Shown here piece by piece: positions 17,535-20,500 of a DNA stretch of 28,136 nt; positions within the stretch are counted from its first letter, which is position 1, and every line of letters begins with the position of its first letter. Origin of the DNA: SAR202 cluster bacterium AC-647-N09_OGT_505m (GTDB lineage Bacteria; Chloroflexota; Dehalococcoidia; UBA2985); assembly GCA_009391225.1 (NCBI GenBank), contig VEXC01000014.1:1-28136 (forward strand), read 5' to 3'. Below the pieces are notes generated by a model that was given only the letters and a program-made list of their open reading frames with translations, did no database searches and was not told the origin of the DNA. The position numbers and the translations under genes are program-made.

Positions 17535-20500
17535 CGCTATTCGCATCTCCATTGCTGCCCCGGAGCAGGTCAAAAACTGGTCCTACGGAGAGGTAACCAA
17601 GCCTGAGACCATTAACTACCGTACCCTCCGGCCTGAAAAGGACGGGCTTTTCTGCGAGCGTATCTTTGGTCCCACCAAGGACTGGGAGTGCTTCTGTGGG
17701 AAATATAAGAAAATCCGATATAAGGGAGTTATTTGTGATAGGTGTGGGGTCGAAGTGGCTCGATCCAAGGTCAGACGAGAACGAATGGCTCATATCCAAC
17801 TCGCCGCTCCTGTAGCCCACGTCTGGTTCTCCAAGGGAATACCCAGCCGATTGGGGCTCCTATTGGATCTCTCTCCTAGAAACCTGGAGAGAGTTCTGTA
17901 CTTCGCCAAGTACATCATCACTCAGATAGACGAGGACAAGCGCTCCAACCTTATCCAGTCCCTCAATGAATCCCTAAACCGTGGAGTCGTGAGAAATGGC
18001 CATCCTGAGTCTCAGCTTTTGGAGGAGACCGACGGGACTACCCAGGAGAGCCAGAATCTGTCGGATGGGGATGAAGGAAACACCAATGGTGTGCAGCCCG
18101 ACTTGGAAGTGGATAACGGTCCAAGCCAAAAAGAAATCCAGGCCCAGATAGATGCATTGGAAGACTTACGGCCTATGCAACTCCTGACAGAAGCAAACTA
18201 CCGGGAGTTGAGAGACAAGTACAGCGACATTTTCAAGGCAGGCATGGGAGCGGAGGGTATACTAGCTATTCTGCAGAAGATGGACCTTGAAACCCTTAAA
18301 CTCCATCTTCAGGAGGACATAGTCTCAACATCCGGGCAGCGCCGCAAGAAAGCAATCAAACGCCTGCGCGTGGTAGAGTCCCTCATCAAGAGTGGCAACG
18401 AACCACAGTGGATGATTCTTTCTATGTTGCCTGTGCTGCCACCAGACCTTAGGCCAATGGTGCAACTGGATGGAGGACGATTCGCTACCAGTGACCTCAA
18501 CGACCTCTACAGAAGAGTCATCAACCGCAACAACAGACTGAAGCGTCTACTGGACCTAGGGGCCCCCGAAATCATAGTGCGCAACGAGAAGCGGATGCTT
18601 CAGGAAGCTGTGGACGCCCTAATAGATAACGGGCGGGTGGGTAAGGCAATCTCTGGAAGCCATAACCACAAGCTCAAGTCTCTTGCAGACCTCCTCCGAG
18701 GCAAGCAGGGAAGGTTCCGTCAGAACCTGCTGGGCAAGAGGGTGGACTACAGTGGACGCTCCGTGATTGTAGTGGGGCCGAATCTAGCACTCAACCAGTG
18801 TGGCCTTCCCAAGAGAATGGCGCTAGAGCTATTCAAGCCCTTTGTGATGAACCGCCTGATTTTGGACGGCCATGTCCACAACATCAAAGGGGCCAAACGC
18901 ATGGTGGAGCGAGTAAGGCCAGAGGTGTGGGATATTCTGGAGGAGGTGATAGCCAAGAGGCCTGTGCTCCTGAATCGCGCGCCCACTCTGCATCGCCTGG
19001 GAATTCAAGCATTTGAGCCAGTTCTGGTGGAAGGCAGTGCCATCAAGATTCACCCACTGGTTTGCACAGCCTTTAATGCAGACTTCGATGGCGACCAGAT
19101 GGCGGTCCACGTGCCCCTGTCCAAGGAGGCGGTGCAAGAGGCCAGGCAGCTCATGCTGAGTACTCAGAACATGCTCTCACCTAGTTCTGGAGAACCAATT
19201 GTAGCTCCCACCCTGGACATGGTGTTCGGCTGCTACTATCTAACTACTGAAGTGCCCAATGACGATATGGAAGACTATCTAAAGGCATTGGCTGACGCAC
19301 TCTCTAACGAAGTCTCACTGACTACTGAAGTCCACAATGACGATGTGGAAGACTATCTAACTAACGGAGTCTCAAGTGGAAACGTAGAGGCTCTCAAATT
19401 CAACGATCCTGACGAGGCGAAAACGGCTTATGAGCATGGATTGGTCGACCTGAGAGCGTCTGTCTTGATAAAACAGTCAAACAATGGTTCGGGAACGTCC
19501 TGGTTCAAGACCACCGTAGGTCGCATCATAAGTGCCAAGGTACAGTCTCTCAAGTTCAATGACCTTAACGAGGCAAGAATGGCCTATGAGAATCGCGAGG
19601 TGGACCTGAGGGCAGGGGTCTTGATAAAGCAGTCCGACAACGACACGGGAACAAGCTGGTTACAGACCACTGTGGGTCGCATCATCTTCAACGAGGTCTT
19701 GCCGGAGAGCCTGAGCTTCCGCAACGAGATAATGGATAAGAATCTCCTCAAGGATATAGCCGCTGAGTGCTACCGTACCCAGGGAAACAAGACGACCGCA
19801 GAAGTGCTAGATAAGATTAAGAGCTTGGGCTTCTACTACGCCGGCCAATCTGGTACGACTATTGCTATTAATGACATCGAAGTTCCTGCTCAGAAGACCG
19901 CGTTGATAGAAAGCGCCACCGGCAAAATCGATGGTCTTGAAGAGCAGTTCCAACGGGGACTCATTACCGAAGAGGAGCGATACAACACGGCTGTACGCAT
20001 CTGGACAGATACCAGCGACCAGATGACCAAGGTTATTGAGGAACACCTACCCACCTACGGCGGTGTATATCTCATGGCCATTTCTGGAGCCAAGGGGAAT
20101 ATAGCCCAGATAAAGCAGATGGCAGGTATGCGCGGCCTGATGAGCAATCCACGGGGCCGCATCATAGAGCTACCAATCAAGTCCAGCTTCCGAGAAGGGC
20201 TTAGCGTTCTAGAGTACTTCATCTCAACCCACGGAGCACGCAAGGGGTTGGCAGATACAGCGCTGCGAACAGCGGATAGCGGCTATCTCACTCGACGGCT
20301 GATTGACGTCTCCCAGGAAGTTATTATCCTAGAGCACGATTGCGGCACCACCATGGGCATAACCATTGAAGCCCACCACAATAATCCTCTGGTGTCCCCT
20401 TTCGCCTCCCGTATCCTGGGACGCACCGCCGCCAGTGCTGTAGCAGACCCCTCTACTGGCGAAATCATCCTGGAGCGCGATGAAGAGATAACTGAGGATA

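Follow-up and report, generated by a model that had tools for sequence, protein, structure and literature searches.

The window, by which we mean the whole 28,136-nucleotide stretch of DNA analyzed here (contig VEXC01000014.1 of SAR202 cluster bacterium AC-647-N09_OGT_505m), carries rpoB (13,722–17,534) and rpoC (17,500–21,759), both on the forward strand. The open reading frame of rpoC is intact and its translation, the RNA polymerase (RNAP) β′ subunit of 1419 residues, holds Rpb1 Pfam domains 1 to 5 together with the NADFDGD motif in one chain, i.e., it is a bacterial RpoC. The motif was found in the translation at residues 526–532 (19,075–19,095, forward strand), and is the catalytic motif of β′. 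Over the whole gene, comparison with the relative L001 gives a dN of 0.095 and a dS of 1.14, hence the gene is conserved. A variable N-terminal stretch of RpoC (about residues 163–210; 17,986–18,129) differs in length among the window and the relatives L001–L004. Near the 3′ end of rpoB (17,406–17,464) about ten GACCTA-like hexamers specify a tail of Asp-Leu/Gly-Leu (DLDLELGLDLDLDLDLGLGLG); in L001 and L002 the rpoB tail is acidic and lacks this repeat. Downstream of rpoC, positions 22,537–25,941 encode a C5 cytosine methylase and a Vsr-like endonuclease on the reverse strand and a PD-(D/E)XK nuclease-like protein on the forward strand, which look like a restriction-modification or repair cluster.

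A doubled module and an acidic repeat in RpoC

RpoC of the window contains two adjacent copies of a 52-residue module on the forward strand, copy 1 at residues 626–677 (19,375–19,530) and copy 2 at residues 678–729 (19,531–19,686), the latter continuing straight into the segment FNEVLP. Both copies were delimited by the direct repeat and pairwise comparison and by the elements of an AlphaFold2 model. In this register the copies are identical at 35 of 52 residues and 116 of 156 bases, and the 156-nt direct repeat, at 75%, was found both by a repeat search and by Tandem Repeats Finder (TRF score 352), far above chance. The initial annotation, made from the DNA alone, had described adjacent in-frame copies sharing 34 of 52 residues, a count that holds in its register, and lying after NADFDGD. 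Translating 19,393–19,704, which is one open frame, confirms the in-frame tandem duplication, and the position is likewise borne out: the doubled module lies inside Pfam domain Rpb1_3 (residues 557–793), after NADFDGD and before Rpb1_4 (residues 823–897), and copy 1 starts 100 residues after NADFDGD in sequence. The window RpoC exceeds each of L001–L004 by 91 residues, i.e., an acidic stretch plus one module; the alignment gaps place the residues absent in these relatives at 587–677 (19,258–19,530, forward strand), the exact edges being dependent on the alignment.

Directly upstream of copy 1 (19,240–19,374) lies a second, imperfect tandem repeat, acidic in character, that was absent from the initial annotation. 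Its core of 43 nt, repeated at 91%, starts at 19,240 and again at 19,318, and gapped extension of this core, once a 7-codon gap is allowed, gives two units on the forward strand: unit A of 26 residues (581–606; 19,240–19,317) and unit B of 19 residues (607–625; 19,318–19,374), a shortened repeat of unit A. The units are identical at 38 of 42 bases over the first 14 codons and at 13 of 15 bases over the last five, the latter a match reached by 0 of 100,000 random draws. Unit A opens with the residues of the native LTTEV strand, which are also present in L001, and the linker as a whole has a net charge of −10 over 40 residues.

Between the two module copies 40 of 156 bases differ, for the most part silently; the 17 residue changes are in frame and without stops, and by the NG86 method dN is 0.20 and dS 0.95, the latter imprecise given only 52 codons. 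In a neutral simulation of 3000 pairs, diverged to the equal base-difference count without selection and with stops excluded, residue differences averaged 24.9 and were never fewer than 18, so that 0 of 3000 pairs were as similar as the observed pair (17 differences), which indicates that the pair has been constrained as protein after duplication. Since identical copies would suggest an error whereas these have diverged mostly silently, the doubling looks genuine and an assembly artifact unlikely. Among all the explanations weighed here, an assembly or chimera artifact is the one to which we give least credence: the doubling is known from a single contig, with no second contig carrying the pair found and with a database search using residues 584–715 returning, besides the window protein itself, two partial matches but no independent assembly, yet the bases and residues that distinguish the copies, the preserved frame, the absence of stops and a third-position G+C of 0.625 in the doubled region against 0.609 in the gene all argue otherwise.

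Occurrence and origin of the doubling

A module profile (A3, 70 positions) was built from 45 relatives and the window's two copies. The window protein gives two near-complete matches to A3 (positions 4–52 and 2–70, overlapping by 49 positions), a pattern absent from all 199 other proteins compared, which comprise 80 loci and 119 homologues and of which 198 matched; four of the 199 (L019, L067, L072 and L073) have two half matches flanking an insert. Metagenome fragments were scored with a 301-residue query, and the best 120 of 7995 all match a profile built without the window's rows (120/120, six of them as half matches), with two copies in none of these 120. At the level of the class the module was detected in 360 of 393 genomes, 51 of which have more than one match (counted by eye; all 51 inspected), and at the level of the phylum, in a survey overlapping the class set, in 363 of 400 genomes, 70 of which have more than one match (again by eye), all inspected, 62 in the phylum survey and 8 already in the class survey. 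No tandem pair occurs among the 360 class and 363 phylum module-bearing genomes, the multi-match cases having been read by eye. As candidate duplications these multi-match genomes were rejected: pairs within one gene are halves of one module, whose overlap never exceeds 14 of the 70 model positions, and the remainder have their matches on different contigs or in distant, separate rpoC-like genes. Five genomes from the family of L001's genome comprise four single-copy cases and one without a match, and each of the two PDB alignments inspected, from the best 60 of 96 matched sequences, has one module copy.

The module had been described as single in other β′ subunits, and this holds across the surveys, the 199 homologues and the best 120 of 7995 fragments. 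The initial annotation had further suggested that comparison with other Chloroflexota RpoC proteins and with related genomes would decide between a peculiarity of this gene, a standard arrangement of the phylum and an assembly artifact. With no tandem pair in either survey, the two-copy arrangement is not standard in the phylum and a phylum-wide two-copy trait is rejected; related genomes have a single copy, which points to a lineage-specific doubling, and the divergence of the copies argues against an artifact. The doubling was found on this one contig only, the sampled relatives being without a second copy, and no report of this duplication was found in the open-access literature searched, which points to further surveys of RNAP inserts by Lane and Darst (2010) and by Iyer et al. 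(2004).

When the module is left out, a tree of RpoC joins the window to P0045 (86%), with P0006, P0005 and P0004 as neighbors; all four are single-copy, and outside the module single-copy relatives are 88–90% identical to the window RpoC. In a free tree of the module, copies 1 and 2 are sisters (97% ultrafast bootstrap) inside the group of P0045, P0006, P0005 and P0004, hence the doubling arose in this lineage. Three residues (S1, V4 and L7) are common to both copies and found in 0 of 28 single-copy relatives. P0044, misregistered owing to a 2-residue insertion, was left out of the trees and of the 28-relative residue comparison and included in the identity bins; P0021 and P0028, which are close to P0014, were left out of the trees. 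On the fixed RpoC topology, the path is 0.28 to copy 1 and 0.38 to copy 2, whereas the remainder of RpoC has 0.094 on that branch, so both copies have outpaced the other parts of the protein, though still under constraint; total tree length is 3.5 for the module and 2.9 for the rest of RpoC. The single-copy P0005 is identical to copy 1 at 39 of 52 residues and to copy 2 at 36 of 52.

Judged from these sequence comparisons, the doubling is a lineage-specific event. A two-copy ancestor whose other descendants lost one copy, or import of the second copy from another lineage, would be consistent with the dS between the copies, which is near the value of the window against L001 over the whole gene and would by itself suggest an older event, but a dS taken over 52 codons is imprecise, and the sister relationship of the copies, their three shared residues and the single-copy state of all the tree relatives make such an origin highly improbable.

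Identity and predicted fold of the module

A bacteria-specific domain, β′-bD4, has been described as an insertion in β′-uD3 (Alvarez-Carreno et al., 2024, PMC11515920), and the table of that paper gives it 46 residues in Dehalococcoides mccartyi. Compared in register with this table, the window module lies, as β′-bD4 does, between the YYLT strand and the remainder of the pore domain, so that by position the module is β′-bD4, an assignment mapped by order and register to PMC11515920 and not by its sequences. The position in β′ is thus the same and the length similar (46 versus 52 residues), whereas PMC11515920 presents one domain and the window has two tandem copies; the stem "duplicat" is absent from the main text of that paper. 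For the middle of bD4 that paper lists inserts that are lineage-specific, and those it reports within the domain are HABAS, BEAN or sLC domains (PMC11515920); the mid-module inserts of L019, L067, L072 and L073 agree with this published insertion site. Against a profile of the relatives' single-copy module, built without the window's rows, copy 1 scores 55.3 bits and copy 2 54.8 bits, ranking 29 and 31 of 38 sequences.

AlphaFold2 was run on residues 400–905 with 63 relatives aligned (of 79 with a usable region), each offering one copy, and gave a model with a mean pLDDT of 79.1 and a pTM of 0.75. Each copy is modeled as strand-helix-strand-strand-helix, the starts of the elements being shifted by 52 residues (53 for one strand), and the same elements are predicted for the single module of L001 (mean pLDDT 79.3, pTM 0.71); by their secondary-structure elements, both copies are predicted to share the fold of the single-copy module. 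Ten-residue means of pLDDT are 66–79 in copy 1 except for its first residues, 79–96 in copy 2 and 36–54 in most of the linker. The BEAN domain consists of two antiparallel bracket-like elements, and the modeled strand-helix-strand-strand-helix order and the repeat origin point elsewhere for the window module.

A Foldseek search against the PDB identifies the modeled piece as β′. One of the PDB chains, 8gzg_D, which is named RNA polymerase subunit gamma and is cyanobacterial, has 626 residues and ends shortly beyond the module, at the position equivalent to window residue 740. A cryo-EM study assigns the cyanobacterial split of β′ to a surface loop of RNAP (PMC10120043), and the end of 8gzg_D taken together with this surface-loop split suggests that the C-terminal edge of the module lies at the surface of the enzyme.

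Possible roles of the extra copy

The reading that we favor, and consider likely, is a lineage-specific duplication accompanied by growth of the acidic linker, in which copy 2 would be the native module and copy 1 a peripheral, tolerated surface appendage. The small bacteria-specific pore-domain module of β′ (by position β′-bD4) would have been duplicated in frame and in tandem in this lineage only, and the acidic linker ahead of it would have grown and doubled after the module duplication or along with it. Because copy 2 is continuous with the FNEVLP segment common to the relatives, it probably occupies the native place and would be packed where the single module usually sits. We infer that the extra copy lies on the enzyme surface, where copy 1 would form a second helix-plus-hairpin mini-domain flanked on one side by copy 2 and on the other by a flexible, acidic tether ~40 residues long; it may offer at most a weak docking or steric surface, leaving catalysis unchanged, and the influence of the doubling on transcription is probably modest. 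Several findings count against the appendage: the doubling comes from a single contig, copy 1 is modeled with moderate confidence, its slightly closer likeness to P0005 does not favor copy 1 as the spare, the two copies have nearly equal scores with the family profile, and acceleration of both copies is also expected from a new function.

Ranked by plausibility, the peripheral appendage comes first, a docking function next and gating of the secondary channel last. Under a gain of function, copy 1 and its acidic tether would be kept because a lineage-specific factor or nucleic acid docks there, which we regard as unlikely. Such a gain would fit the accelerated yet constrained evolution of both copies, and the β SI1 insert of RNAP, the hairpin of which binds the helicase PcrA (PMC8318588), provides by analogy an exposed hairpin as a model for a possible role of the extra one; SI1, however, belongs to another subunit and has another sequence, and for the window module no partner is known, no second species with the doubling was found, and a single sequence offers no conserved new surface. 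More doubtful still is that we are seeing a newborn, diverging RNAP domain, in which one acidic-tethered copy of a core module duplicated whole has become a factor-binding or channel-side regulator before any spread through a clade; were this true, it would illustrate the first stage of repeated RNAP inserts. The initial annotation proposed that the extra copy, putatively close to the active site, could affect the secondary channel; such a change, which would bear on NTP entry, backtracked RNA or Gre-type factors, appears improbable: in sequence the module does lie within the pore domain between NADFDGD and the funnel domain, but its C-terminal edge coincides with the split of the gamma chain, a surface loop according to PMC10120043, and the insert is flexibly tethered in the AlphaFold2 model.

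The doubling has parallels among known inserts. The inserts β i4 (BBM2 repeats) and β′i6/SI3 (SBHM repeats) are lineage-specific and built of tandem repeats (Opalka et al., 2010, PMC2939025), so that there, as in the window, an RNAP large subunit has grown in a lineage-specific manner through the tandem repetition of a small module. Those inserts occupy other sites, have other folds and are distributed over clades, whereas the window has a native core module repeated beside itself on one contig. The reported consequences of inserts of this broad type range from a small effect for β i4 and β i9 to essentiality for β′i6 (PMC2939025). Lineage-specific inserts are numerous in RNAP large subunits, and some of them consist of tandem repeats, but the origin of most is no longer visible; here both copies, their junction and single-copy relatives that are 88–90% identical outside the module can be compared, and the birth of an insert by local duplication can therefore be reconstructed and tested.

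Other additions occur in this part of β′. In the RpoC proteins of L027 and L029 the YYLT strand is followed immediately by acidic insertions, which occupy the site of the window's acidic linker, and in L019, L067, L072 and L073, as in several survey genomes, an insert in mid-module splits the profile match into two halves. Since relatives have inserts here that are either acidic or within the module, the site appears to tolerate growth, and the doubling marks it as growth-tolerant. In L068 (OY282442.1), RpoC has a Cys/His-rich insertion (CPHEECNPYCDKCGHKETCKAQ...) after the pore module, towards the funnel domain, which may bind metal and lies at the start of the rim helices.
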